64,000 nt of DNA, from assembly GCF_910596095.1 (NCBI RefSeq), contig NC_056539.1, positions 9,064,501 through 9,128,500 on the forward strand, in the 5' to 3' direction. The position numbers and the translations under genes are program-made. Below the pieces are notes generated by a model. That model worked only from the letters and a program-made list of their open reading frames with translations, had not been told where the DNA came from and searched no databases. Below, in pieces: positions 15,001 to 41,600 of this stretch. Position 1 is the stretch's first letter; every line of letters begins with the position of its first letter. The DNA comes from Thunnus maccoyii. Lineage: Eukaryota; Chordata; Actinopteri; Scombriformes; Scombridae.

Positions 15001-18000
15001 ATAGTTAAGTAAATGGGTTGTTGAGTCAGCAGGTTTGGTGCATCCAAAAGTTATCCTAAAAGAAAGTAACTTATTAATATTTCAACAAGATATTCAGAGA
15101 GCTGATACTGACCTATAACGACGAGGCGTCCACCCTGAGACACGGCAGCCGAGGCCTCGATTCTGTCCCCGAGAACTCGCTCCCACAGAAGGCTCCCGGA
15201 GTCCAGGTCTAAAGCCTGCATCCTGTGAGAGTGTGAACCGATGAACGCTGTTGTTTTACCATCGTCTGCTCCTTCTTGTACTAAAAGCACCGGGGAGGCG
15301 TCCACACATCGACCTGTGTCTGAGGACCAGCTAAGACTGAGTCCCAGAGCTGTGGACTTAACATCACTGCTCTTCTTACTCACACGCTTTTCTCCGAGTG
15401 CATCAGCCTGCAAGCTTTTATTCGTCTCTGTATTTCTGATTTCTGTCACCTCACCGGCTCTTCTTATAACTTTAACAGCCTGAATGTCAAAGTAATCTGC
15501 TCCCCCTTGAGGCCTCTCTGCTGCTATAGAGTCTTTACGTTTTCTCTTCTCTAGCGCCACAGAGGGAGCATCAGCCTGTCGTTTCTTGGCCTCAGACGCT
15601 GAGGACGGGCTGGTCTTGACTGGCAGCATCAGTGTTACTCTGGCAACGTGACGCAGTACGTCAGAGAAGGTCCCGTCGAGTACAACCTCCAAAAGTTGAG
15701 GTGAGGTCGCTCCTGTAGCAGTGAGGATGTCTTCACAGAGGCGCAGCGCCTTCAGAGAATCTCCTCCACTGAACAGGAAGTTGGATTCTTCATCAATAGT
15801 TGCATTTTCAGCAAGACCTAGAGTATCCTGTTGATTGGTGGTTCAAAATGTTGAGTGTGCATATGTTGACAATTAATTATTTTAGAAGTTGTGAAAAACA
15901 CGCCATACCTGCCACAAAGATTGAAGAGTTTGCTGGAGTTTGGCAACATCTCCCCGTGAAGAATCAGACTCTAAACACTCTCTCTGTCTTTGATAGATTT
16001 TCATAAGTGCCTGCATGTCTACTTTTCCTGTCAAAAAACAAAAAGACAAAAACACACCATTAGAATCCCTAAAATGCTGCCGTTTTTCCTCATGCGTGTC
16101 CGATGCTCACCATGAGGAGTCAGGGATAAGGCCGGGATCAGCACCAGCGTGTCTGGAACGCTGTAAGAAGGTAGCAGCAGAGACAGCTGGTTCAGAATAA
16201 GTCCGCTCAGATCTCCGTCTGCGCCGCCTGTCTCCACCTCGTGGCGTTCATCGTCCTCCTGAGACTCAGCAGAGGCCAGGGGTGTTTGTTCTGCGTGCTG
16301 CTGTGCAGGTGGGAGAGGAGAAGCAGCCTTCTGGTCTCCAGATGTGGACGTCACAACAAAGGCGAGCAGTCGCGAGCCTTCATACAGACTCACAGCACAG
16401 GCCTCCACCTGAGGCAGACTCATTATGAGCTGGAGGAGGAGGAATAAACAGGAATACTTCTGTCATCCACAAGGTCAGCAAACATACAAAACATGCTAGA
16501 TGATCATCCTTTGCTGCCTCTGTTCTGGTTGATGTCTTTTGAAAGCGAAGAGCAAGATGTACAAACAAATCTCACCACAAGGTCCATTCTTGAGCTTTTA
16601 ATTGTAACACATGTTCTTTCTCAGCAGATGGAGTTTGCTCAGTTGTCAAGGAAGGTAGATTAAAGGTCCATGTTGTTTTAAAACTTGAGGTTAAAATTTC
16701 AACAGCAGTTTAATTTGCTGAGGAAGATCATGTGATAAGATCAAAAAGTCCTGAACAGATTGCTTGCCAACTGCTGTGCCCAAGGGTCAAGTATGAACTT
16801 TCAACCTCAAGATGTCAGAGTATCTGCAGGTCCTGAAAAGCCTTAAAAGCATTGAATTCGCTTTCCTCAAAAAAGGCCTTAGATAAGATAAAACAAAGCA
16901 GTTTTTTTTTTATTCCTGAAAAATGACATTGTGACATACACAATTTTTATGTGACAAAAGCAGGTTATGATAGATCACCACCATCTTTTTATTGCTTTTG
17001 ATATGTGTATTTTAATGTACATGTACTCAGTTTCTTCTCAATAAATGGAATAAATGCAACTGTACATGACACTGATCATTAATTATATTAATATTTTGGC
17101 AAAACATAATACATAAAAACATCTTACATGCTGCACGCTGTCCAAGTTCACCCGTTTTCCATGGCGTTTAATCGTCCTGTCTCTTCGTCCCAGGTAATAC
17201 AGCTGTGAGTCTCTAACACTCACCCAGTCTCCAGTAGCTCTCATCGTCCCGGGGACAATAGTCTCCTCATCGTCCAGGAGGCACACCCTGTCCTCTCCAC
17301 CTTTACCAAACATCATAAAGATTTACTTTGATTTTATTCACCTCAGTTTAGTTCATGTGTACTGTACTCACTGAAATCTTTCCCACCTATGAACGCCTGT
17401 CCTTCACCCTCAGTTACAACACAGCCAAGTTCATCTCTTACTTCCACCACTGTGTCCATTAGAGGAGTCCCGAGAGGCACGGAGGAAACCGTGCTGCTGG
17501 GCCAGAAATGTTAAATGGAGATGTGAAGATACCAAATGTTTTACTGCAGCTTATTTAAAAATCAACGTTCAGCGGCAAACAGAGGATACTCACGTGTTGT
17601 CAAACTGCAGCAGAGACTGTGGGATTTTGTAACAGCAGGCCCAACAGGACACCTCAGTAATACCGTAGATATTGTAGATGTGGGTTTTGTTGTCCTCATG
17701 TCTCCAGCTGCTCAGCAGAGACGGTGAGGGGCAGCTCTCTCCACCCAGCGCCAACACACGCAGTGAGGAGCCGGATGACAACACTTCTTGTTTTAGGATA
17801 CGTTGTCCGAAGCGGCCGAGCAGAGTGGGTGTGACCTGTGGAAACACAAAAAAAACACATCGTACTAACAGAAAAGACGATCTTGGCAATTCTAAATACA
17901 GCCTATGATGAATGGACTCGTGCCTGTAGGACAGTTGTCTGGTGATTCTTGAACAGCAGTTGAGCCAGTCGATTGGGTATTTTCTTAATCACAGCAGGGA

Positions 18001-21000
18001 TAATGAGGAGCTGCGCCCCGGATGATAAGGCTAGGAAAATTTCCACCACAGAGGGGTCAAAGGTTAAAGGCGAGGCCAGGAACACCACATCATCTGCACT
18101 CATCTGAAACAAAGAGCTGAGAGAGGGGTGCAGTTCATAACAGCATCTAAATATATAGCGCACTCGATGAAGCAATAGTGAGAAAAAGGTATTATTACTG
18201 ACCTCAGATGCAGTACATTGGGCAGTATACACTTGTGTGGCACCCTCACAATCTTTGGAAGGCCTGTGGTTCCAGATGTGTGTAGCACATATGCCAAGTC
18301 TCCTTGCCCAGCGTCCTTTAACTCTGCAGCTGAAGCACAGAGATCAGCAGCGGTTTGCTCTGTTCCTCGTTTGTGGTCAGCAACCGGCAGCGGTTTGACT
18401 CGTACCAGGGTTAGTTTGAACTTGGGCAAGACAACACAAACCTCTGCAGTCACGTGTTGGACGAGAGCTGCCTGGAATCGCTTGATGGGAAGAGGAAAGA
18501 AAATCAATGGGCGTATTAATACAAATCTATTCATATTATTGTGATCCTCTAGCTTGCAGAAAGAGGGAAGACTTCAACAAATCACAAATTCATGTTGATG
18601 CTGCTAATGAAATGCCATTTTAAGATGTTTATTTGTGTCCATATTATGCATATTACTAGATAAAGTTGTACTCAATCAAATAACCACAATAAGTTTAAAT
18701 GTTACTGTCAAATGTTGTATTTGCAGTTAGACATTAAATAATTACTGAGGTATTTATATTCATAAAATATGAAATATTTAACCTGCAGGAGGTCAGTCTT
18801 CACAGCACAGTACTTGAGGCAACACTGGTTCATGACTCGGGCAGAGAGAAGCCCTGGAGCATCTGGGTCCAGAGGGACATAGGCAGCAGGTAACTGCAGG
18901 ATGCTGACACACAACACACACACACACAACAACACAATAAATTATTATCTTTCATGTAAGAATACATTATAACATAATAAGACAATTAAGACAATAAGAT
19001 AATTTATGACGCCGAAGTAAGCTTCCAATTTGCTGATTCCGATCCGGGGTTAAGGGAAAAGTTGAGTTAAGGGAAACATGCATAACAATAGCGGCTGATT
19101 CTCCCTTTTTTCACCACTTAGACTTGTGGAAAAGTGATTTCAGATTTGTGAAACCTCTATTTTGCTTATGAAAACTGAGAAAAGGGCGATTTCACAGTTT
19201 CTTCCCATCCAGATCACATCAGACAAGGTTCAGTTCAAAAACCACTGTGCTTAGACTTGTCAAATCTGAACTAGATTAACAAGGAGACTCCAGAGACTCA
19301 TTAAAACACAGTTTCAGATTTGTGAAACCAGGGGCGGATCTAGAGGGGGGACAAGAGGGGCAGCTGACTACTGTAGGTCTTGCCCCCCTAGGTTTTATAA
19401 GATAAATGTATTTTTCAGTCACCACAATGTTCTTTAGGTGTCCAAAGCACTGAAATAAGCAAGAAATAGAAAGAAAATACATAATACATAATGCTCACTT
19501 TGGCCCATGGAAACTGTCAGTATGACACTGCTCCAAACATGCACAGACACACAGTTGCAGAGTCAGAACAACACAACAGACTGACGGCTGCAGCATCTGG
19601 AGGTGATGTCAAGTCAGAGGTTTTCTGTGTGAAGTTTAACCAGCCAAACCACTTTAACTCAAAGTTAAATTAGTAATGAATGTAATTACTGTATGCTAAA
19701 CTTGATTCAATAATGAGAGCATGTCCATAATCATAACGTTAGCCAAAGGTTAAGTTGCTAGCTAAAACAGAGTTCATCACCAGACGTGATTTGGAAGAGC
19801 CTTTGTCATTCTGAGCCTTGATTTTAGTAGATATCAAAAGCTGCATGGCACCGTTGCAATGTTAAAGAAACAATGTTAAAGGACCAGTGTGTAGGATTTA
19901 GCCGCATCTAGCGGTGAGGTTGCAGATTGCAACCAACTGAATACCCGTCCCCCTCCCCTTCCAAGCGCATAGGGGAACCTATGGTGGCTGCGAAGTTCAC
20001 ACAAAATGCAAAAGGTCCTCTCTAGAGTCAGTGTTTGGTTTGTCCGTCCTGGGCTACTGTAGAAATATGGCGGTGCAACATGGCAGCCTCTGTGGAAGAG
20101 GACCCACTTGTCACTACCCAATCTGTACCAACTGCTCGATCTGTTCTGCACATACCTGTGTATGCATGTGCGGGTCCGCCATCTTGGACAGCTAGGTATG
20201 GCAACACCACTTCGACAAACCACATGTTTTTTTTCATTTGTTTGTTTGTTTTTTTATTGTTTATTTTATAGAACACATATACATTAGCAGTTTGTACACA
20301 TAGACTGTAAAAAATATGGACATAGAGCAGTTTTGAAGCTCAAAGTGGGCAGCTCCAGCTGTTGCCATCTTCGCAGCGCCTGATGCCAATATGTTACTGT
20401 CCGTTTAATCACTTGTCGTTTTCTGCTTCTCCAATATAATCAAAAAAAGGAAATACTGTATGTCTTTGATAATGATTTTTAATGACTTCAAATACAGGGG
20501 AATATTTATATTTAGCAAGTGGAATTATATTGCTTACATGATATTCCCCAGTGTTGTTACACCATCCAACACTTCCTGACTAGGTCATGTGACACTGGTG
20601 GAAAAGCTGTTCTGTGTGAGAAGTTTGAAAGCTGTTGACAATATCTGCTGACAACATCAGACACTATTAAGCAGGAATTATTTAAGAAATATATTTAGAA
20701 ATATGAGGAAACTTCCCTCACATTTGCAGCATTTCCAATTTAACGTTTTACTCCATAATTCCAAATTCTGTCTGTATATATTAAATAGATACTTTATGCA
20801 GTGTAGCACAAACGTATTCAACTCTCTGAAAGCTAAAAAGAGGACACCTATGCAGATGTACTTGTGTAATCTTTTAATGCAGTTTTAAGTTCCATACAAT
20901 TATATTTCTGCACAGGCATTCGTCTATCAGATATAGAAAGAAGAGTCAAAAAAGACAAATTTTAATTGTGCTCTAGATGTTTATAAGTAAAAGGTATTGT

Positions 21001-23719
21001 TGTTGATGAGAAATTATATGACTGGAAAATATAAACTCCAAACTCATAATTCCAGAGTTATATCCTGACCCCAATTGTGATATATGTCCAGTAATTAATT
21101 GGTTAAAGAGTATTATTTAGTAAAAACTGTATTTAAACTGTGAAACCAAGAAAATAGAAACAAAACAGTATAAACTACAAATATAATATATCTACAAATA
21201 TAAACACAGTTTTCAAAGGTTTTTTTTTCCAATTTTTAATGTCATTTTCCATACTGTGAAATTTTGAACTGTATTGAAAAAATATACAAAAAACATGTAT
21301 ACTTTTGATGTATTTATGAGAGAAAAGTGTAAAAGTAAAAGGGTCAGAGTAAGAAGTGTTTCTTGTGTGTGTGTTTGTGTGTGTGTGTTTGTATCCCCAC
21401 ACACACACACAAACACACACACATATTCATAGCATTCTGGATTTTTTAAAAATAATTAAATAATTAAAAATAAATAAATAATTATTTATACATTTATTTA
21501 TTTACTTTTAGATTGAAAAAAATTCTAGAATGCTTTATGCAAATGAGGCTTTTATTGCATCATAAAAACTGTTCATGTCACAAAGTAATCTCAACTCTAC
21601 ATCTCAGACCTCCAGCAGTGAGACACAGACATCTTTCTGTGAACACTTGCTGTGAACACTTACTGTGAACACTTACTGTGAACACTTACTGTGAACCAGT
21701 GCGTCCAGAAACGATCTCAAGATGGAGACAAGTGGAAACAAAAAAAGCAAGAAAGGCAGGAACAAGAGGATCATCAAACATATCCCGCGTACCTCCAACA
21801 ATCAGGGTGGTGCTCCCCTCAGCCCAGAAAAAAAGTCTGTCAAGACCGAAGACCGGGCCAGCAAAAAGGACCAAGAGGAAAGGGAGAAACCTCAACTGGT
21901 GGTGGAGGAAAAGAAAGAAAAACCTCAGCCGGTAAACCCATGGAAGAAAAACCTCCAAGAGGGGAGCAACCTGGTGTACTGCCAGGTACATAACAAAGCT
22001 GATTACCCTGCCCTGCCGAGACGACATTTCAGGCAGGGTCAGATGAGACAGGAGCCAGAGTTACTAACTACAGCTCCAGAGTCACAGCCTGCCAAATCAC
22101 CTGAGGAGCCAGAGCCTGTCACAGCTCCCCAAGAGCCAGAGTCTGCAACAGCACCTGAAAAGCCAGAATCTGTCACAGCTCCTCAGGGGCCAGAGCCTGT
22201 CACAGCTCCTCAGGTGCCAGAGCCTGTCACAGCTCCCCAAGAGCCAGAGCCTGTCACAGCTCCCCAAGAGCCAGAGTCTGCAACAGCACCTGAAAAGCCA
22301 GAATCTGTCACAGCTCCTCAGGGGCCAGAGCCTGTCACAGCTCCTCAGGAGCCAGAGCCTAAAACAACTCCTCAGGAGCCAGAGCCTGCCACAGCCCTCC
22401 AAGAGCCAGAGCCTAAAACAACTCCTCAGGAGCCAGTGCCTGCAACAGCTCCTCAGGAGCCAGAGCCTGCCACAGCCCTCCAAGAGCCAGAGCCTAAAAC
22501 AACTCCTCAGGAGCCAGTGCCTGCAACAGCTCCTCAGGAGCCAGAGCCTGCCACAGCCCTCCAAGAGCCAGAGCCTGAAACAACTCCTCAGGAGCCAGTG
22601 CCTGCAACAGCTCCTCAGGAGCCAGAGCCTGCCACAGCCCTCCAAGAGCCAGAGCCTGCAACAACTCCTCAGGAGCCAGGGCCTGCAACAGCTCCTCAGG
22701 AGCCAGAGCCTGCCACAGCCCTCCAACAGCCAGAGCCTGCAGCAGCTCCTCAGGAGCCACATCCAACCACATTAACCAAATTATTTGCTGATCTAGGGTT
22801 CACTGTGACAGCAGGACAACTGCCTGCATGTCCAGTCCAGAAAACCAGTGTGGAGGTCTACTGTGAGCAGACCAACCAGGCTCTGCTCCAGATCCCTGAG
22901 CTTGAGCTTCAGAGGATCGGAGAAGAGAAGGAGGAGCAGATCTCCAAACTGGCAAAGGAGAAAGAAGTCCTGCTAAAAGAGGTAGTGCAATGGAAACAAT
23001 TGCTGAAGAGCCAAACAACAGAGGCAAACCTCCAGCAAGGATTTCTAAAAGCTCAGCTTTCCAAAGAGAGGCAGGCCAACAGTGAAGCGTCTAATAAAAT
23101 TAGGCAGTTAGAGAACGCTCTGGAGGCTGAGAAGAAAGAGCAGGGAGAGATGGAAATGGTCTTGGCCCAAAACATGGAGTTAACATTTAGAATGGAGGCT
23201 ACCTTGGTCCAGACAAACAAGGACCTGCAATACAAAACACACCAGTGGGAGGAGGACAGGTCCCATCTCCTGGCCAAACAGCAGGATGAGACCTCCCGTT
23301 TGTTGGCAGCACTCAAGCAGGCTAAAGAGGACCTCGAGAACGAGAGGCGCCAGTGGAAGGAGGAAAAGTCCCTTCTACTGGAGTCTCTCAGTAACAAGAC
23401 CCCCGAGGTGAGGGAGGGAGCCAGCGGTGGCTTGACTGATCTGTCTGACCTGGAGAAGCAGACAGATGAGATCAAGATAGAAGAACAAGAGCCCAAGAAA
23501 AGCAAGAAGAAATCTCTGTGGAAAAGATTCCGCCAGTTATTCAAATAAACTGGAGCTCTCCACCCTGCACCTCTCTCCCACCACCACACCACCTACTATT
23601 AACCCTCACCCCTAATCTCCCGTTTACCCTTTTCCTCTCATTAAATGCATAAATATATGAAATGCATGCATTTCATATATTTATGCATTTCCTAATTCCT
23701 ATTATGTCTGTATGTGTCT

Positions 23720-23755
<36 letters not shown>

Positions 23756-26700
23756 GTGTGTATGTGTGTGTATGTGTGCACGTATATCCACGCACATACA
23801 CACACATAAACACCCATTTAATTTCTTCTCATTAAATACATGAAAAGTATACATTTTTTTGGTATATATTTTTCAATACAGTTCAATGTTTTCACATCAT
23901 GGAAAATGACATTAAAAACATTAAACACATCATTGCTTATTTATTGGAAAAAACTTTTGGAAACTGTGTCTATATTTTCAGATGTTTATACTGTTTTGTT
24001 TCTATTGTCTTCGTTTTGCAGTTTAAATACAGTTAAATGTTGATCTTTTTACTAAATAATCCTCTTTAACCCATTAATTACTGGACGTATATCACAATTT
24101 GGGGTCAGGATATAACTCTGAAATTATGAGTTTGGAGATTATATTTTCCAGTCATATAATTTCTCATCAACAACAGTACCTTTTTACTTACAAACATCTA
24201 GAGCAGGACAAACTCTTCTTTCTATATCCGATAGACAAATGCATGTGCAGAAATATAATTGTCTGGAACTTAAAACTGCATTAAAAGATCACACAGGCGC
24301 ATCTGCGTAGGTGTCATCTTATTAGCCTTCAGAGAACTGAATACGTTTGTGCTACACTGCATAAAGTATCTATTTAATGTATACAGACAGAATTTGGAAT
24401 TATGGAGTAAAAAGGTAAATTGAAAATGCTGCAAATGTGAGGGAAGTTTCCCCATATTTCTGAATATATTTCTTAAACAATTCCTGCTTAAAAGTGTCAG
24501 ATATTGTCAAACACCAAACACTTTTATGTAATAACTCATATGCTGTGAAAAACGTTCGTAAAATCCACGGCTGACACTCAGATCCTATAGTGACAACATG
24601 TGTCTGGTTTGTCTAAGAAAAAGACAACATTTGGAATACCTTCCCTAAATATGTATTTAGTTGAATGGGTGGAGTTTAATTTCTGCTGAAATGTGATTAC
24701 AAAATTGATACGTTACCTGTAAAGTTACCAAATTTTCATGAACAAGCTCTGCTGGCCTGGAAACCGATTTACAAGCATAATTTTTCACCAACTAATTACT
24801 ACATTTGGAATAACAAGAATATTCAATATAAAAATAAATCACTGTATTGGTTAAATGACTTGTTAATGCTGATGGGCAGTTATTAACGCATAGTGAATTC
24901 CTCTCTGAATTCAGGTTATCAGTTACGATCCATTCAATAGTGGTATATTCTTTGGAGAAGTTGACATTACCAAGAATAAATGCTCCAATAAATACATCTG
25001 GAATTACATACAAGCTGTAACTCTGCCCCCAGGAGGATTCTTTTGGGCTTCGCTTTATGGAGAAATTATTTGGCAGAAAATTTGGCTAGCAGGGGACAAA
25101 TTTAGTCTTATTAATGAAGTTCAAGAGATTTTCTTTAAAATTTTGCATCAAATATATCCAGCAAAAAGGACATTAGAGTGATTTAGAATTAATATTGAGT
25201 GTTCTTGCAATTTCTTTGGATTGAAGAAAAAACAATCTGTCATTGGTTTTGTCACTCTGTGTATACCAGAATATTTTGGGTGGATGTTCAGCATTATATA
25301 AGAAGGAAAACTGGGCAAACAATCCGATTTCAGGATAAAGACATTTTTATATGTTTTGAAGGTAATGAGAAGGAAAAAGGTAATTTTTTTGTACACTTAA
25401 TTTTATTATTGGGAAAATTCCACATTCACAAGAAGAGATGGGCAGAATTCAAACCAAATTTTGGACATTTTTTATCACGAACTGCATCAATGTACCACAA
25501 TAAGAGGCCTTAAGAATAATAAGGAAATTAAAAACTAACTGTGTTGTTGATAAATTTCTTATGAACCGATGATAAATTATTTTGAATTTGTATTACTTTT
25601 TCTAAATACTTTTTTTTTTCTTTTCTTGTAAACTTTGCTTACATAGCCCTGGTGTGGACAGTTTTGTGTGTACAAAGAAGCGGAAACCTCCGTGGCTGAA
25701 AAATGAAGCCAATGCGGAAGTGCCAAAAACTGCAGTTCCTTGAATGGCCACTTGAGACTGGCTCTAAAAGTGCGTCAGTCCCCATAGACCTCCATGTTAA
25801 AATGTCCAACTTTACAGCAGAAATAAACATGTTTACAGCCTGGTACAAAAAACAGTTTTGGTCTCTGTAGCTAATTTTCCCTTTCATGACAACTGTACAG
25901 AGGATATTTTTAAAAAAAATTTTTTTTATAACTAACCCGTTTAAATGTTATTAAGCCGTAAAATTATGTATAATTAAGGGACTGGCCTCTTTGAGTGACA
26001 GGTCGCTAGCCGCTAGGTCGCGAAGATGGCTATGGCTGGAGCCACCCGCAGTGAGCTTCAAAACCGCTCTACGTCCATATATTTTTTACAATCTATGTGA
26101 ACAAACTGTTAATGTATGTGTGTTCTATAAAATAAACAATAAACAAACAAACAAACGAAAAAAACATGTGGTTTGTCCAAGTGGTGTTGCCATACTTGGC
26201 TGTCCAAGATGGTGGATCCGCTCAAATCCTGCAGTGACAGATGTATTAAGAGCAAGCCCCCAGGAACAGCGCCGGGTTTTGAAGCCAATTTGACATAGTG
26301 GCCAAACCGTGTAGGTAAACATCCCTATTAAGCCCACCGAATCCGCTTTTCAGACATTTTTCATATATAATGCCCCAATTTAAGTGAGAACATTTTTGTT
26401 AAAATGAAAGTCTAATCTCTCATTTGAAGTGTCAATAATTCATTTATTCCAGTTTGTTTTTATTGTTTAATTTGTCAAAATATGTCAAAAGTCCGGCATG
26501 GGGTTAATGGGTTCCAAATAAGCCCACTTTATGATTTGTTGATAAATGCTGGTTGAAAGTACGAAGATGTTTTTATGAAGATTTCTGAACACCAACTGAC
26601 TGAAAGAAAAACAGCTTGCAGATTCAACACTAATGTTCTAGGGATGGTAAATGAGTCAATTTCAGGATTTAAATTAAACAATAAATTTAACTGATTTTCA

Positions 26701-29700
26701 AATGTTAATCACATTTAGGCTAATGGTTTGAAAACATTGTAAGAACACATTTTAAAACCATTCAGTTCATTGTGGGGTAACATTAAAACATACAGTTCAT
26801 TGTGAGGAGACATAAGTCATAACATCTTGAAGCTCATTATCTCATCTTAAACTAAAACTTATCTGAAAAGTAAAGATTAGAAAAATATTGCTTATGTTAG
26901 GATAGAATATAGGGCTGTCCAGAATGAATTGACCTATTTAATGTCAGTGATATTTAAATATGGGTAGTAATTATCTGATTTATTGAGCTGATTCATGAAG
27001 TGAGGGTAAAATTAGGGAGGAAAATGGTTCAAAAGTCAAAAGGGACAAAATCCCCATTAAAACACAGTCAAGTAGGCTTAATGGGAGCAGGTGGGCTTAA
27101 AGGGAACATCAGTGAATTTATGGTTAAAAGACAGAATATTTTATTCTATGCACATGACATTAAAAAAAAATAACTATATGAAATAAATCTATACATGGTG
27201 GGCTAACATAACATAAAGAATATTAATTGATCATGCTGAGAAATAATTAGTTATACTCATTTATATCCACCCCAAACAGTGGGATTTTTTTGGTAGCATC
27301 CCCTTTAAGCCCACCAGATAAAAATGTTAATTAAAAAATAAATAAAGATAAACATACACATTTATTATCTATTTAACAGTATAATAATGTAAACTGCACA
27401 CAAAAATGTAAACTATATAGACTTATCATGCTATATGTCATTGCAATGAACCATACTATGCAGCTACTGTATTGATGCAGCATGTGGTCTGTTTGCTTGC
27501 TTGCTAAAACTCATATTTTGATTTCAAAAGAAACAATATTTCTGATTCAAGTAATATTCTAACATATGTCTTATTCAAAACACTAATCTCTTAAAATAAC
27601 AATTGAGTATTTGCCAAAAGTAGGAGTAGAAATATGCAAAAAATGTTATGTTCTCAGGATACCAAAATCACCAAAGTTTTCTTGCAACTTCTTTTGGGAT
27701 CAGCAGGCACATGTCACACATATGCTTCGATAACTCAATATTGACAAATCTGATTGACTTACAATAAAAAGTGTCATTTATGTAACAAGCAGTGTCATGG
27801 GAAGAAACATCAAACAGCAAAAAATTATGATGTGTTTTAAAAAAAAAAATTTGACTCAGAAGTTGCAAGTGGGCTTATATGGTTCGTGGACTTAATAGGG
27901 ATGTTTACCCTAATTACAACGTCATGTGATGCTATTGGGCCCAAAAAGACTTTTTCCCATAGACTTACATTGTAAAAGAGACGTCTGTAAGTAAGCAGAT
28001 CATTTTTTTAAGCATCACAACTCCCACATAATGACTCATTTCACTATCAGGATTTGATCCATCCATTGATTGAATCGTTTTATCCCCATTCAAGTTAGCC
28101 ACAGAGCTAAATTGAAAGTTAGCAGTCTCGGCCAGCGGAAGTCTCTACTGAGCATGCTCTATGGATGCATTGGGCCCATAGAGCATGTGCAGTATGTCTT
28201 CATCCAGGTATTTCTTTGCAATGAGAAGTGGCTTTTTTGGCTTCACACCCCACTGAGTAACTTTCATAGGAATGAATGAATTAACTCTACACACTGCACC
28301 TTTAAGTTATGTTTGAATCCATCACATTTAGAGAGTGAGTTGTGGAGACTGTAGCCTAATAACTGAACATCAATGCTAGGAGATCTATTATTTTTGTTTG
28401 ATTAACAAATACATAACTGCCCTCCTAACACAGTAAGTTACAGCACAGAGTCGAAACACACACAGGCTGCTGCCTTCTTGACTGTCAGACTGAATATATT
28501 AGCCATGAGGGGATTAATTAGTCTAAATATCTCTCAGTGTTAAATCTGATTGATTTGATTGTTTTATTGTTATTTATTAACTACATACTCCTACAGTGTA
28601 ATGTAATACATGACTTTTAACCAAAAGATCCTCTCACATCTTGACTACTGTAGGTCAGAGTAGTTTGACTGCCGTGCAGTGCAGACCAAAAATGAAAAGG
28701 AAGGGCAAAAGTGGTGATATTTCCAGCTTTTTCAGCAAGAAAACTCAGTATTGATATTAGATATGTTTGTGAAACGTTTTTCACAACTGTCACCTTTAGC
28801 TGTCTTAAAAAACTGGTTGAACATGACTTGATGGTTAGTGCAAAGCCAGTAAGAGCTGCACAGTGTTTTGGATGAATGTTGGTATCTTGTTCCTGTTGTC
28901 CATCATTAAGAATGTGTGTATCAAAATAACACAATGTAAGAATAAATATAAAATATATTAATGGATCTTTTTGTTAACCCATTTACCTACAGAATGGTAT
29001 TTTTATTTGGGGATCACATGTCACCCCTGCCAAAACCTCTTGCCACCCCATGTCAAATTTTCTAGATCTGTGTGAAACCTTTATGTTGTTGTTTTTTTCC
29101 CCCGCCCAGACCACATTAGACCAGGTCCAGTTAAAAAACAACTATACCTAGACTCATCAAACTTGGACTAGATTATTATTATTAAGATTGGCAAGTCTAA
29201 ATATAGTGTTGTTTTTTTTTTTATCTGGACCTGGTCTAACGTAGTCTGGATGAGGAAAAAGCTGTGAAATTGCCCTTTTTTCTGTTTTCCGTAAAATAGA
29301 AGTTTCACAAATCTGAAATCACTTTTTTCACAAGTGTTGAAAAAACGGAGAATCAGCCACTAAATATCATTATTTATGTTTCTCTTCACCTCGAATCAGA
29401 AGCAGACTTGAGCTTCAGTCATTTGTCATGGCATGGTAATTCAAACTTGTCTAGCCCACACACTGACATACACATTATGTTTTGACAATAAGTGCTAAAC
29501 CTTCAGTAACAACAGTAGACTCACCCCAAAATCCAGACAGGTGTGAACAAGTCATCACTACAATACAGGCCGATCACGCCGTTGTGCAAAGAGCAGTTGT
29601 CCCGCAGAATATGAGACAGTTCACCGGCAAGTTCGGACAGATCTCTGTACCGCAGAGACACTGGGCTCCCCGAAACTGACCCATCATCATACACCACAGC

Positions 29701-29763
29701 TGCCCGGTGAGCGTGCAGAGAGGCGGCGGCGGCTACAAGATCCTGCAGCGTCCCAGCAGCCAT
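12047..29763 (-). CDS. aasdh: Beta-alanine-activating enzyme, acyl-CoA synthetase family member 4 (AASDH)
   Basis: Fourteen exons join to 1107 aa (human 1098): 29525-29763, 18783-18903, 18203-18480, 17924-18116, 17594-17835, 17387-17493, 17128-17300, 16111-16429, 15909-16027, 15113-15827, 14060-14223, 13422-13547, 13182-13313, 12047-12442. The N-terminal half is an adenylation domain with the core motif TSGTTGLPK at about residue 188 and YGITEVS further on. A carrier domain follows with FLFSGGDSLKAL, where Ser621 is the expected phosphopantetheine site. The C-terminal third is a PQQ-type beta-propeller (repeated GSHDGHVYAL, FSSP and STDGTVWIL blades). The family activates beta-alanine onto its own carrier domain; the downstream acceptor is not settled. 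ATG 29763 is preferred over the in-frame ATG at 29787 by match to the human start. Intron 4 appears to use a GC donor. Intron 1 is 10.6 kb and holds another gene. Confidence 0.95.
12443..15112. other. aasdh introns 10-13
   Basis: Between the propeller exons the introns 12443-13181, 13314-13421, 13548-14059 and 14224-15112 are AT-rich. The last contains a pyrimidine-rich stretch (about 14630-14760) and a short TG run at 14453-14468. I see no additional gene or RNA. Confidence 0.5.
16430..17127. other. aasdh intron 7
   Basis: This is a 700-bp intron between the carrier-linker exon and the end of the adenylation domain. It is AT-rich, with no exon or recognisable repeat that I can support. Confidence 0.4.
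19085..19400 (+). repeat. Left member of an outer inverted-repeat pair in aasdh intron 1
   Basis: Beginning GGCTGATTCTCC (19092), then TGATTTCAGATTTGTGAAACC and TCAAATCTGAACTAGATTA, this block is matched in inverted orientation at about 28985-29355. The match includes the mirrored terminus GGAGAATCAGCC at 29347. The arms are diverged and contain no coding sequence. They could be the ends of one large old insertion or two independent copies of one family. Confidence 0.55.
19868..20110 (-). repeat. Truncated copy of the AAAGGACCAGTGTGTA repeat family
   Basis: Starts TTAAAGGACCAGTGTGTAGG and continues through GAGGTTGCAGATTGCAACCAA and TTTGGTTTGTCCGTCC to ATATGGCGGTGCAACATGG. It equals the distal half of the fuller copy at 59735-60610, read in the opposite orientation. 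The other half is missing; unrelated DNA follows at about 20110. Confidence 0.7.
20160..21425 (+). repeat. Left arm of a long inverted repeat around the intronless gene
   Basis: From the words GGTATGGCAACACCAC and ACCACATG (near 20190-20225), through ATAAAATAAACAAT (reverse sense), to the CA/TG tract at 21364-21423, this segment matches the reverse complement of 23745-26235. The best-preserved part is 20650-21330 against 23845-24510. There a 61-codon stretch (20703-20888, + strand) and its mirror (24270-24455, - strand) differ at about 10 of 61 residues. The right arm is longer because it holds extra DNA, including a LINE fragment. Confidence 0.75.
21364..21423. repeat. Perfect TG/CA hairpin, 25-bp stem
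   Basis: The left strand 21364-21388 (TG-rich with one TTT interruption) is exactly complementary to 21399-21423 (CA-rich with one AAA), leaving a 10-base loop TTGTATCCCC. It marks the inner end of the left inverted-repeat arm. A similar but imperfect TG...CA mirror (about 23750-23815) marks the inner end of the right arm. Confidence 0.85.
21537..21592 (+). promoter_or_regulatory. Candidate core promoter of the intronless gene
   Basis: A perfect POU octamer ATGCAAAT (21537-21544) lies about 17 bp before a TATA-like CATAAAAA (21561-21568). A start site about 30 bp further would give a 5' leader of roughly 130 bases. That leader would include a 13-bp tandem repeat (21637-21696). The motifs are visible; their use is inferred. 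Confidence 0.35.
21637..21696 (+). repeat. 13-bp tandem repeat, about 4.6 copies
   Basis: The unit CTGTGAACACTTA runs in register from 21637 to 21696, the first copy ending in G instead of A. It finishes 26 bp before the ATG of the 608-residue protein, so it would lie in its 5' leader. Confidence 0.85.
21722..23548 (+). CDS. Intronless gene for a 608-aa protein with Pro/Glu repeats and a coiled coil, nested in aasdh intron 1
   Basis: One uninterrupted frame runs from ATG 21722 (context AAGATGG) to TAA 23546, opposite to aasdh. Residues 1-110 are Lys-rich and basic (KKSKKGRNKR). About 126-346 is a degenerate 9-residue repeat of the type PEPxTAPQE, with a 27-residue higher-order unit near-identical several times (22350-22750). 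About 394-558 is a Glu/Lys/Gln coiled coil. The C-terminus is strongly basic and amphipathic (KKSLWKRFRQLFK). No signal peptide or membrane segment is visible. The lack of introns suggests a retrogene or a gene of a teleost-specific intronless family; I recall fish proteins with similar coiled coils and basic tails but cannot name an orthologue. ATTAAA at 23640 is a possible poly(A) signal. The function is unknown. Confidence 0.75.
   Translation: METSGNKKSKKGRNKRIIKHIPRTSNNQGGAPLSPEKKSVKTEDRASKKDQEEREKPQLVVEEKKEKPQPVNPWKKNLQEGSNLVYCQVHNKADYPALPRRHFRQGQMRQEPELLTTAPESQPAKSPEEPEPVTAPQEPESATAPEKPESVTAPQGPEPVTAPQVPEPVTAPQEPEPVTAPQEPESATAPEKPESVTAPQGPEPVTAPQEPEPKTTPQEPEPATALQEPEPKTTPQEPVPATAPQEPEPATALQEPEPKTTPQEPVPATAPQEPEPATALQEPEPETTPQEPVPATAPQEPEPATALQEPEPATTPQEPGPATAPQEPEPATALQQPEPAAAPQEPHPTTLTKLFADLGFTVTAGQLPACPVQKTSVEVYCEQTNQALLQIPELELQRIGEEKEEQISKLAKEKEVLLKEVVQWKQLLKSQTTEANLQQGFLKAQLSKERQANSEASNKIRQLENALEAEKKEQGEMEMVLAQNMELTFRMEATLVQTNKDLQYKTHQWEEDRSHLLAKQQDETSRLLAALKQAKEDLENERRQWKEEKSLLLESLSNKTPEVREGASGGLTDLSDLEKQTDEIKIEEQEPKKSKKKSLWKRFRQLFK
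22101..22760 (+). repeat. Coding minisatellite of 27-bp units grouped into 81-bp repeats
   Basis: Units such as CCAGAGCCTGCCACAGC recur throughout. Between about 22370 and 22750 an 81-bp block repeats with few differences. All units keep the frame of the 608-residue protein, giving alternating PEPATALQE, PEPKTTPQE and PVPATAPQE type segments. Copy number should vary between individuals. Confidence 0.85.
23643..23690. repeat. Perfect 48-bp palindrome
   Basis: 24 bp starting AAATGCATAAATATATG are followed directly by their exact reverse complement, with no loop. It lies about 95 bp past the stop of the intronless gene and overlaps the ATTAAA at 23640-23645. It may form a cruciform in DNA or a hairpin at the mRNA 3' end. 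Confidence 0.9.
24690..25620 (+). mobile_element. L1-like LINE fragment, C-terminal end of ORF2, decayed
   Basis: Conceptual translation, with several stops and frame changes, gives phrases typical of the 3' part of fish L1-type ORF2. Examples are PNFHEQALLAWKPIYKHNFS (about 24728) and, in an open stretch 25199-25513, DVQHYIRRKTG and LLGKFHIHKKRWAEFKPNF. The polymerase core and 5' part are absent. The copy lies inside the right inverted-repeat arm. Confidence 0.7.
25655..26100. repeat. Interspersed repeat, percomorph type
   Basis: Contains GGCTGAAAAATGAAGCCAAT, CCATAGACCTCCATGTTAAAA and, at the far end, GAGTGACAGG and GTGAGCTTCAAAACCGCTC. The last part is matched on the other strand near 20310-20390, where only this end is present. 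It is non-coding. Confidence 0.6.
26245..28310 (-). repeat. Interspersed repeat split by a 1.6-kb insertion
   Basis: The two parts, 26245-26313 and 27911-28310, together match the reverse complement of the copy at about 59905-60385. Shared words are CCAATTTGACATAGTGGCCAA, TATTGGGCCCAAAAAGAC, TTTATCCCCATTCAAGTTAG and GCCCATAGAGCA. In the uninterrupted copy the joint reads GTGTAATTAC in this orientation; here it is GTGTA-insertion-TAATTAC. Confidence 0.75.
26314..27910. mobile_element. 1.6-kb DNA element with terminal inverted repeats and TA target duplication
   Basis: The left end GGTAAACATCCCTATTAAG and the right end, read inverted, GGGTAAACATCCCTATTAAG match apart from one G. The flanking dinucleotide TA occurs at 26312-26313 and 27911-27912 and only once in the empty-site sequence at 60310. 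TA duplication suggests a Tc1/mariner-like or related DNA transposon. No transposase is recognisable, so it is a non-autonomous or fully decayed copy. Words such as AAGCCCACC recur inside it (26328, 26520, 27305). Confidence 0.75.
28985..29355 (-). repeat. Right member of the outer inverted-repeat pair
   Basis: Reverse-complement counterpart of 19085-19400: AGTTTCACAAATCTGAAATCA at about 29300 mirrors TGATTTCAGATTTGTGAAACC at about 19136, and GGAGAATCAGCC at 29347 mirrors GGCTGATTCTCC at 19092. An internal mirror (GACCTGGTCTAA against TTAGACCAGGTC) shows this copy is itself partly palindromic (29105-29250). Confidence 0.55.
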
Positions 29764-30324
29764 GCTGATGATGAGTTCACTGACCACCTGCTAATCCTCC
29801 ACCCATGCTCATTTTAATGCATATGTTATTCGGTTCACGTAAAGGATGCTTTGTTTATATTTTATACCCAGTCCATGTGATATGACGGAGCTAGGATCAC
29901 GTTTGTCGAGTGCAGATGACGCATGGCATGCAAATGTACGTCATCTTGAGCGCGTTCATGCCAAAGTCTCAAACTCTGCCTTTATAACATGCGTGGGTGT
30001 GTGTTGATGCTTCAACTATCTATCAACCAAATATCGTTACGCAGAAGTGGACACATAAGTTAACATTCACTCCACTTTATCTTTGCTACATATGAGTAAC
30101 CATACTACTTAAAACGCAACTGTTTGCGTTTTGTTTTTCAAAGCGCGATTTAATATACATGATTTCCTATTATCCGTGAAGGCACCACACGCCCCGTGTC
30201 CAATGATCTTGCTCGTTTTGCGGAAGCAGGATTTTTGAACCTGAAGGCGCCATTACTGTTTTCTCAACTAGCCTGTTACTTTTCACCATCTATCAATATC
30301 AAGAAAACGTATTTTATAGGCAAA
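29764..30324. promoter_or_regulatory. Bidirectional promoter region between aasdh and hjurp
   Basis: The two start codons point away from each other and are 561 bp apart. Visible motifs are CRE-like TACGTCAT (29938) and TGACGCAT (29916) nearer aasdh. On the hjurp side there is a CCAAT box (30200-30204) and a CHR-like TTTGAA (30234-30239), 30 bp apart. That spacing is typical of NF-Y/MuvB-controlled G2/M promoters, which fits the late-cycle expression known for HJURP. The function is inferred. Confidence 0.6.
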
Positions 30325-38600: not shown

Positions 38601-41600
38601 AACAATCACGTGGAAACAGTTTAAATATATCAGTGGGAAGTGAGTTTTATCATTTCTGATCCCTCAGTCCTCTTTCTACAAGACTGAACATGAATAAACT
38701 TTTTCAACTGTAAATGCTTGAGGCGAACTAAACTAGTTTGATAAGGGCAAAATGAGGCAGGAATGGGAAGCTGAAAAAAACCAAAAAGCGTCTGCTTTTC
38801 AGCTGTGGAGCTGCTATACCCGGAGAGTCGTCTTGCTGCAGTTTCAGCCTATTTACCAAGCTGCTTCTCGGATTACAGTTGATCCCGCCCCCTCACCACA
38901 CAGCTTAAGCCAGTGGTGAGGCTGCTTTTCTGCATGGAGGCGTTGCTTTCAGGCTTAACCGCCTGGTTGCCTAGGGAACCGGGCAGCAGAGACAGACGGG
39001 TTGGGGAAAAGAAAGCGTTTCCAGGTCAGCTCAAACATGGAGAGAGGAGCAGAGAGACAAAGAGGAGGTGATAGGGAGGTGGTAGAGGAAAAAGGCTCGG
39101 TGGAGAGGCAATGGGGGGAGGCAGAGGTGCTGGCTCTCATGTCTGTGTGGGACGAGGTGGGAGCTCAGCATGTAGCTGAGAGCAGAACCACATTTGAGTT
39201 GATCTCAGAGCGTCTGAGGAGGCTTAGTGTTGTGCGCAGCTGGTGGGAGTGTCAGGCCAAGTGCAGGAGCCTGGGACTTAAGAGCAGGAAGCCTGAAGCA
39301 GCAGGCCCATCAGCAAACTACAGCCCAGGAGTGGATGGAAGGCCGGTGGAGGGCTGGGAGGAAGAGGTGGAAGATGTGGGTAATCAAAGAGGAATCTACC
39401 CTTCCTCAGTCACAATCTCAATGCAGGAAGGTAAATGTAGGTTCAACCCCAACTGTAGCGCTGATGATCACAATATGACAATGCTCAACACATTTTAGTA
39501 TTTAGATAAAAACTAACAGATTAGAGGAAAAACAAGCATGTCAGTTAAACTATTTTTAGCCTCAAACTGACATTGAAAACTATCTTAATATTGTAAATGT
39601 TGTCTAAAAACTCAGATTAAATTAAAACTTTTGATTGAATTTGTTTTGAAAAATCAAGAGAAAAACAACACTTTGTGTGCTTGTGTGTACAGGAATCAAG
39701 AGTCGAATCCATCTGGCTCTTCCTTACACTTCAAGTGTGGCTGAAGAGGGGGGCCGCCACTGGACAGATGATGAGGTACGAGCACTGTTGTGCATCTGGG
39801 CTGACCGGCATATTCGAGAGCGCTTGAAGTGCACGCTACGCAACAAGTCCATCTTCCAAGAGATGGCCCGTCAGATGCAGAGAAACTTTGGGGTGATACG
39901 TAACTGGAAACAATGTCGAACAAAATACAAGAACTTAAAATATGACTACAAGACCGCCAAGAGCGCTCACGCTGCTGGAGGCAGCGTAGCGGGAGGCCCC
40001 GGGAAGTACATGAAGTTCTTTGATGAGGTGGAAGCCATTCTGCTGGACCGTGGACTGGAAAATGGGACTCTGGAGATGCAGAGGAGGTTGTATGATGGAG
40101 AAATGGGAGCTGGGAGGCTACAAACACCAGCAGGCAACACAGCACAGACAGCTTCAGAAAATGAGGTTGTCATAGAAATTGATGATGGTATGTATGCAGT
40201 CTGCCTGGTTCTTGTAGTTATGATTTAAAAAATGCTAAAAAGATCAAATTATCTACTAATAATTTTATTTTCAGATGACACCAGTGATGATTACGATATG
40301 GATGGCGACATGGAAGCAAAATGGAGAGGGACAGGTATGCAAAAATAAATAAGCTGTACAGTTTACAGTGTGTCATCTTCTCTTTCCTTACTCTACTTTT
40401 CTTCACTCCAGGTGCCCATCTAACACCCACAGATCCATCCTGCTCTGACCAGTTCCACGTGGTCACTGTGTCAGACACGGGTCGAAACTGGAGTGACCAG
40501 GAGGTGCGTGCACTGATTCAGGTCTGGTCTGATGAGCGTGTGTGCAGGCAGTTGGAGAGCTCAACCAGAAAGAGAGACATCTTTGTCCAGATCTCTAACA
40601 GGTTAATGCAGCAAGGCATTGAACGTGACTGGAAACAGTGCCACACCAAGTACAAAAACCTCAAGTACCTTTACCGGTCCCTCCAAAGGGGCAAGACTGA
40701 TGAAACTGACCCAAGACGCCTTATGAGGTTCTATGATGAGGTGGATGCCATTATGAATCACGCAACTAATGGCTCACCTGCAAACCACCAACCAGATTCA
40801 GGCGGACTTACGATGCTGGAGGACTGCGAGGAGAACGATCATGCAGATGTCATTCTGACAAAGTCAAACACAGTGTCGACGATGGTGGACGCGATGGAGG
40901 AGAGAACATGTAGTTCTGATTCTGTCTCGTCTATAAGCCTCGATGCTACACCAAACGATGAAGAACCAAGGCTGCATCCAGGCAACGGGCACCGCTTGGA
41001 TCAAGAGCACAGATTAATGAGTGAGCCCAGTAACATAATTTTGTTTATATCTAGTGTTTGATGAAAGTAATTCACATGTAGCTTTCTACTATTAATTACC
41101 AAAGTCAAACAGGACCAGAGATTTACAGCAGCCAAAAACATTCAAGCTTTGTTTTGACTTTACATCTCTAATCTCCTCAACTCACACATACAAAATTAAA
41201 ATGTCACATCACTTTAATCCAATTTACGATTTTCCAAACATCAACAAAGTAAAACTTTTAAAGGGGTTGGTTCACCCAAATTACAACAAAAAAAAAAAAT
41301 CCTCACAGACGCTCCCTGTGAACAGCTTCCATAGGGACTATTTGCTCTGTAGAAAATGTGGATTATCCTGAGCAACAAGGTAACGATTGCTTCTGTAAAG
41401 ACAGTATTTTTTAAATTCACCTTCACTGTAGTGGGGTGGAGGCAGACATCTAACAGACCCATATTTCTAAACCTCCACTTAAAAACAAACTATCTACAAA
41501 GTAATGAAAATAATCATTAGCTGCAGACTTAATCTGCATGGCTGGATACCTCTTAAACCTTGAGTCTTGAGGAATTTCAAGTTAGTGTCATAATACTGTA

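Follow-up and report, generated by a model that had tools for sequence, protein, structure and literature searches.

Sex chromosomes are the most familiar setting for palindromes that undergo gene conversion. The ampliconic palindromes of mammalian sex chromosomes carry inverted gene pairs and multicopy genes (PMC3403216). A second comparison is offered by Tetris, a foldback transposon of Drosophila virilis that combines long inverted repeats and a variable middle with dispersed copies (PMC4079207). The lrrtm genes, which lie on the opposite strand within introns of alpha-catenin genes (PMC3933685), provide a third. The locus described here resembles all of them, since it holds an intronless open frame nested antisense within a host intron, belongs to a multicopy family with inverted gene pairs, and is enclosed by long inverted repeats that recur at dispersed sites.

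In the window, which is the whole stretch of DNA analyzed (64,000 nucleotides, C7:9064501-9128500 in a genome of 782 Mb and 54 contigs), the frame at 21722..23548 of the plus strand runs from an ATG at 21722 to a stop codon at 23546-23548, giving 608 codons with no intron. The ATG has the context CTCAAGATGGA, and an in-frame TGA is located 5' of it at 21692. The frame is antisense to aasdh and lies within coding intron 1 of that gene, the exons of which were located with a human fragment as probe; in the rest of this intron (outside 21690-23550), no stop-free stretch exceeds 125 codons. The start, stop, length, and host intron given by the sequence-only reading, an earlier look at the same DNA, all check out; both the flanking inverted repeat and the paralogues of the frame were absent from it. 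This inverted repeat encloses the frame over 3.9 kb, with 20649-21422 aligning with 24509-23752 (49 mismatches in 653 aligned columns, 14 indels). The features are as follows.

20649..21422, plus strand: left arm of the inverted repeat, presumably the 3' flank of a lost partner gene, with homology to other copies out to about 20387
21431..21482, minus strand: probable trace of the lost left partner, from its mirror-image 5' region
21522..21568, plus strand: presumed promoter block, from TTCTAGAA through an octamer (21537) to a TATA-like CATAAAA (21561)
21633..21696, plus strand: 13-bp tandem repeat (CTTACTGTGAACA) 5' of the ATG
21722..22084, plus strand: codons 1-121, basic N terminus and "NPWKKN...YPALPRR" block
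22103..22777, plus strand: Pro/Glu array of 25 nine-residue units (27 nt each, the final one degenerate) in 81-nt super-units
22784..23548, plus strand: C-terminal coding part with most of the predicted helix and the basic amphipathic end, KKKSLWKRFRQLFK
23640..23690, plus strand: ATTAAA, a variant of the poly(A) signal (23640), and a 48-bp perfect palindrome
23752..24509, minus strand: right arm of the inverted repeat
29751-29524, minus strand: aasdh coding exon 1, with exon 2 starting from 18908

The composition of the 608-codon frame is coding-like. On base composition alone, an open frame would be expected with a chance of 0.005 over the 121 unique N-terminal codons and of 1.2e-6 over the 259 C-terminal ones, and GC at codon positions 1, 2, and 3 of the C-terminal part is 0.56, 0.31, and 0.61, against 0.28-0.36 for the 1-kb flanks. 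A codon score trained on 1941 codons (aasdh exons together with two further long frames in the window, of which one has no assigned identity) places frame +0 best of six in the N-terminal, repeat, and C-terminal parts alike, reaching +51.4 in the C-terminal part versus -0.9 and -3.9 in the other plus-strand frames. For the repeat part, the score of 51.7 in frame +0 has a close second of 43.5 in an antisense frame with 10 stops; the pN/pS of the repeat array is 0.56 in frame yet 0.51 in one antisense frame and is therefore not decisive. An aasdh exon on the opposite strand was ruled out, as the antisense codon scores are negative in both the N- and C-terminal parts. A search of 18,000-30,000 against Rfam and a tRNA scan of the whole window with bacterial settings gave no match. 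Elsewhere in the window, three consecutive plus-strand frames at 38959-41061 match the Myb/SANT-like domain PF13837 (E-values of 6.5e-7, 5.5e-18, and 5.8e-17) and are perhaps one gene with three such domains.

The protein parts proposed from the letters alone were recovered, namely, a basic N terminus, nine-residue Pro/Glu units in super-units, a long helix (read there as a coiled coil), and a basic amphipathic end. AlphaFold modeling of 22748-23548 (266 residues) predicts a single helix of 181 residues, with block pLDDT values exceeding 90 over residues 61-210 of the modeled stretch. The helix part contains a 36-residue internal repeat that is reached by 0 of 200 shuffles, and its heptad periodicity is mildly above that of shuffles (mean reached by 12 of 500, maximum by 58 of 500). 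Because the helix is predicted from one sequence, the coiled coil is something that we infer: the helix probably forms a rod of this kind. The last 11 residues have a hydrophobic moment of 0.76 versus a median of 0.21, and in the copies on contigs C5 and C21, the basic amphipathic end reads KKKSLRKRFLQLFK. The frame matches no Pfam family and has no significant relative in the PDB (best E-values of 0.33 and 1.6); no relative of the C-terminal part was found in viral contigs or prokaryote genome contigs, nor one of the N-terminal part in viral contigs. The protein is a fast-changing candidate, and its likeliest role, itself a doubtful one, would be that of a tether or scaffold with an adjustable Pro/Glu spacer.

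Searches of the genome place the frame in a family of at least eight loci on five chromosome-sized contigs. Matches were scored for the best candidates, and all copy and match counts are lower bounds. With the frame as a query, the DNA search returned at least 12 matches, 11 of them in family loci and the other, 46 bp long, in the repeat part; the protein search returned at least 24, of which 15 fall in the family's own loci and the other 9 (C17, C1, C12, and C9) cover the Pro/Glu part only, with 25-35% identity. All of the at least 10 matches to the C-terminal part lie in family loci, and the arms gave at least 15 matches. The suggestion of a poorly described teleost intronless family is thus supported within this genome, which holds at least five intact copies including that of the window, one truncated copy, and two decayed ones, while two further loci (C19 and C7:12.17 Mb) have arm pieces only. 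The intact frames encode 608 residues in the window, 599 at C7:8.41 Mb, 581 and 554 at C7:7.77 Mb, and 353 on C5. The proposed check for disrupted frames in relatives, run here on paralogues, showed five frames intact, one copy truncated, and the copies on C21 and C16 decayed by broken frames or stops. The gene is accompanied by both inverted arms in the window, at 7.77 Mb and 8.41 Mb of C7, and on C5; on C21, one arm is partial and the other is down to an 82-bp end piece, and the arm search gave no match at C16. The total lengths of the four full-length intact C7 copies differ only by multiples of 27 nt, and the Pro/Glu array is mostly missing from the C5 copy. The N-terminal part with the "NPWKKN...YPALPRR" block is present in the decayed C21 copy and absent from the C5 copy. 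A literature search of titles and abstract openings, with most subscription journals outside its scope, found no description of the family.

The most complete arrangement is observed at 7.77 Mb of C7, where 7772754-7778642 (5,889 bp) matches its own reverse complement with 93% identity over 6,020 columns and contains two intact head-to-head genes of 554 and 581 residues. Both this palindrome and that of C5 have a mirror-symmetric center, in which a TATA-like word, the octamer, and TTCTAGAA are followed after approximately 30 bp by TTCTAGAA, the octamer, and a TATA-like word. Each of the remaining three palindromic loci has a partner that is truncated or missing. At 8.41 Mb, the right gene is intact (599 residues) and the left one is a C-terminal remnant that keeps part of the 5' region without the octamer; the inverted homology extends further out here, in two blocks of 98.4 and 97.6%. 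The C5 locus has an intact, short left gene (353 residues), its right gene being reduced to the promoter-like block. In the window, the right gene is intact and the left one is reduced to its 3' flank, perhaps with a trace of the 5' region: 21431-21534 aligns to its own reverse complement at 74.5% over 110 columns, part of which symmetry may be low complexity because the stretch is AT-rich. Apart from the gene copies, no frame of at least 100 codons lies wholly inside the 7.77 or 8.41 palindrome.

The surroundings of the window copy also contain other repeats. At E 1e-3, the arms have no other match in the rest of the window save simple repeats, and one 27-base arm pattern gave no match among contigs of viruses or prokaryote genomes. 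An inverted match of 46 bp within the window proved to be a stretch matching itself and was discarded as evidence, and an outer inverted repeat (20167-20374/26020-26224) was taken as separate interspersed sequence, judging from neighboring repeat matches. An interspersed repeat that is unbroken at 60611-60312 (minus strand) is represented by two separate segments at 19876-20104 and 26250-26313. The gene and its arms occupy the 6.1 kb that separate these segments, and this interval looks like an insertion into, or a rearrangement inside, an older copy of the repeat; no clear target-site duplication was seen there. By eye, 24700-25560 looks like the decayed 3' part of a LINE.

The promoter-like block is recognizable in all five intact copies, and the 13-bp tandem repeat is also found in the other intact C7 copies. 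ATTAAA occurs at the equivalent place in the right copy at 8.41 Mb, both copies at 7.77 Mb, and the C16 copy but not in that of C5. The octamer/TATA promoter and poly(A) signal of the sequence-only reading are present as words (21537, 21561, and 23640), although words resembling a TATA box or a poly(A) signal occur often in the window and by themselves prove little. Between the plus-strand copy at 7.77 Mb and C5, the block is 87.7% identical over 73 columns, and the 5' leader is 88.0% identical between C5 and C7; neither is better kept than the arms, so the block was dropped as a conserved footprint and kept only as shared structure. It may act as a promoter, and the gene may be expressed, perhaps from the octamer in the germline or early embryo. 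Directly 3' of ATTAAA lies the 48-bp perfect palindrome (23643-23690), of which imperfect versions are likewise placed in C5 and C16.

We consider the frame to be a single-exon protein-coding gene of a family copied as DNA in palindromic units with conversion between arms, and we assign this reading a probability of roughly 0.6. The unit would consist of two head-to-head genes around the mirror-symmetric octamer/TATA center, with the 3' flanks of the genes as arms, and it would have been copied around the genome at the DNA level. The window copy would represent the right half of one such palindrome, with the left partner presumably deleted except for a 3' flank that now forms the left arm. The copies have in common the upstream sequence, the gene, and up to approximately 3 kb of 3' flank, and this flank carries old interspersed repeats, known from many other genome sites, at the same positions in 7.77, 8.41, and C5. 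Such sharing indicates copying as DNA and argues against retroposition of a transcript.

Arms within a locus were apparently homogenized by gene conversion. Over 442 gap-free columns, left and right arms are 98.0% alike on C5, 98.0% at 7.77, 95.7% at 8.41, and 91.2% in the window, while the C5 arms are only 85-87% identical to any C7 arm; this large difference suggests arm-to-arm conversion. Informative sites comparing C5 with the window, 7.77, and 8.41 all support within-locus grouping (within-locus:same-side:opposite of 47:0:0, 70:0:0, and 52:0:0), and an arm tree joins the C5 arms with full support. Since the center is shared, the simplest view is that the palindrome arose once and that its arms then underwent conversion with each other. 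Among the C7 loci, the sites are divided (window-7.77, 10:4:1; window-8.41, 4:3:15; 7.77-8.41, 6:3:11), the arms do not group by locus in the tree, and the right arm of 8.41 is closer to the 7.77 arms (97%) than to its own left arm (95.7%). Conversion is therefore clear only for C5 versus C7, and exchange between C7 loci is possible. A bolder version, in which the palindrome itself is the spreading unit, copied whole between chromosomes and self-maintained by conversion as neither a classical transposon nor a sex-chromosome amplicon, is offered tentatively.

Inverted arms that accompany the gene at four loci, the 82-bp second-arm end piece on C21, the arm-only pieces on C19 and at C7:12.17 Mb, and the spread over five chromosome-sized contigs are also what a foldback-like DNA transposon with long inverted repeats would leave, the frame then being a cargo or accessory gene and the transposase being supplied elsewhere. 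We regard this as rather unlikely. The outer limits of homology vary among copies with no shared ends, the frame holds no Pfam domain, the copied flank includes interspersed repeats at shared positions, and neither the window arms nor the outer boundaries of 7.77, 8.41, and C5 showed a target-site duplication; at those boundaries, the longest shared words are 4-5 bp and are matched by 119, 300, and 201 of 300 shuffles. With differing outer limits and no target-site duplication, DNA copying of a palindrome fits better than a transposon with fixed ends.

Survival of a nonfunctional open frame by chance after duplication is improbable. Two copies are decayed and one is truncated, as this explanation would have it, but five frames are intact, and over the 230-231 codons of the C-terminal coding part, pairwise dN/dS between C5 and each of the four intact C7 copies is 0.44-0.46, with bootstrap 95% limits from 0.26 to 0.77. 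This value of about 0.45, together with the codon score and the length differences of C7 copies in multiples of 27 nt, forms the coding evidence. Among the six pairs of intact C7 copies, dN/dS is 0.08-0.52, with an upper limit above 1 in four; for the window copy and its nearest intact paralogues, the values of 0.43-0.52 have upper bootstrap limits of 1.03-1.26, and constraint on the window copy alone is thus not significant. In the N-terminal part, compared over 106 codons among C7 copies only, pairs differ by 0 to 4 changes, a number too small for a verdict. In neutral simulations with an arm-to-arm clock, the window frame was kept in 0 of 4000 runs, and in 8, 47, and 189 of 4000 with the indel rate reduced to a quarter, a tenth, and none. 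With a clock from the arms versus the 8.41 copy, it was kept in 0 of 3000 for each arm, rising to 13 and 16 of 3000 once the indel rate was cut to a quarter. Of 3000 runs for the C5 frame, 0 left it open at the full indel rate, 51 at a quarter of that rate, and 222 with indels switched off.

Another point in favor of chance survival is that between C5 and C7, the coding part and the promoter block are no better kept than the flank. Coding identity is 82.2%, below that of the arms (88.6 and 87.8%), and dN of about 0.17 exceeds an arm divergence of roughly 0.13. Between C5 and 7.77, 14 of 60 four-fold sites have changed versus 269 of 2244 arm sites (p = 0.015; arm count from rounded identities), and no such gap is seen between the window and 8.41 (3/73 versus 71/1204, p = 0.79). 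Either an older history of the coding segment, through exchange between loci, or faster mutation or evolution may account for this coding excess.

The weakest explanation, that of a lineage-specific processed retrogene inserted into the aasdh intron, agrees with the single exon, the downstream ATTAAA, and the antisense nesting but is very unlikely, because no intron-bearing parent was found in this genome among the best candidates scored, no poly(A) tract was visible by eye after ATTAAA, and the paralogues have upstream sequence and 3' flank in common; a founding member may nevertheless have arisen by retroposition.

As a family copied in palindromic units, the fish loci can be set beside the systems named at the outset. 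As in the mammalian palindromes, arms of one locus resemble each other more closely than those of a diverged copy when C5 is compared with C7, but the mammalian arms are 99.9% identical (PMC3403216), whereas the fish units are much smaller (inverted stretch of approximately 4-9 kb), have arms of 91-98% identity, and are spread over five contigs. Tetris has target-site duplications of 8-10 bp and no conserved middle frame (PMC4079207), whereas the middle of the fish unit holds an intact frame, and neither duplications nor common ends were found. The nesting of lrrtm genes is common to most jawed vertebrates (PMC3933685), while the fish gene is seen in one genome with dispersed paralogues. A dispersed set with the same center on at least two chromosomes, one member having both genes intact and others being half lost or decayed, would show the formation, copying, and loss of palindromes step by step, and a gene that seems to stand alone in an intron can be what is left of one half of a palindrome.
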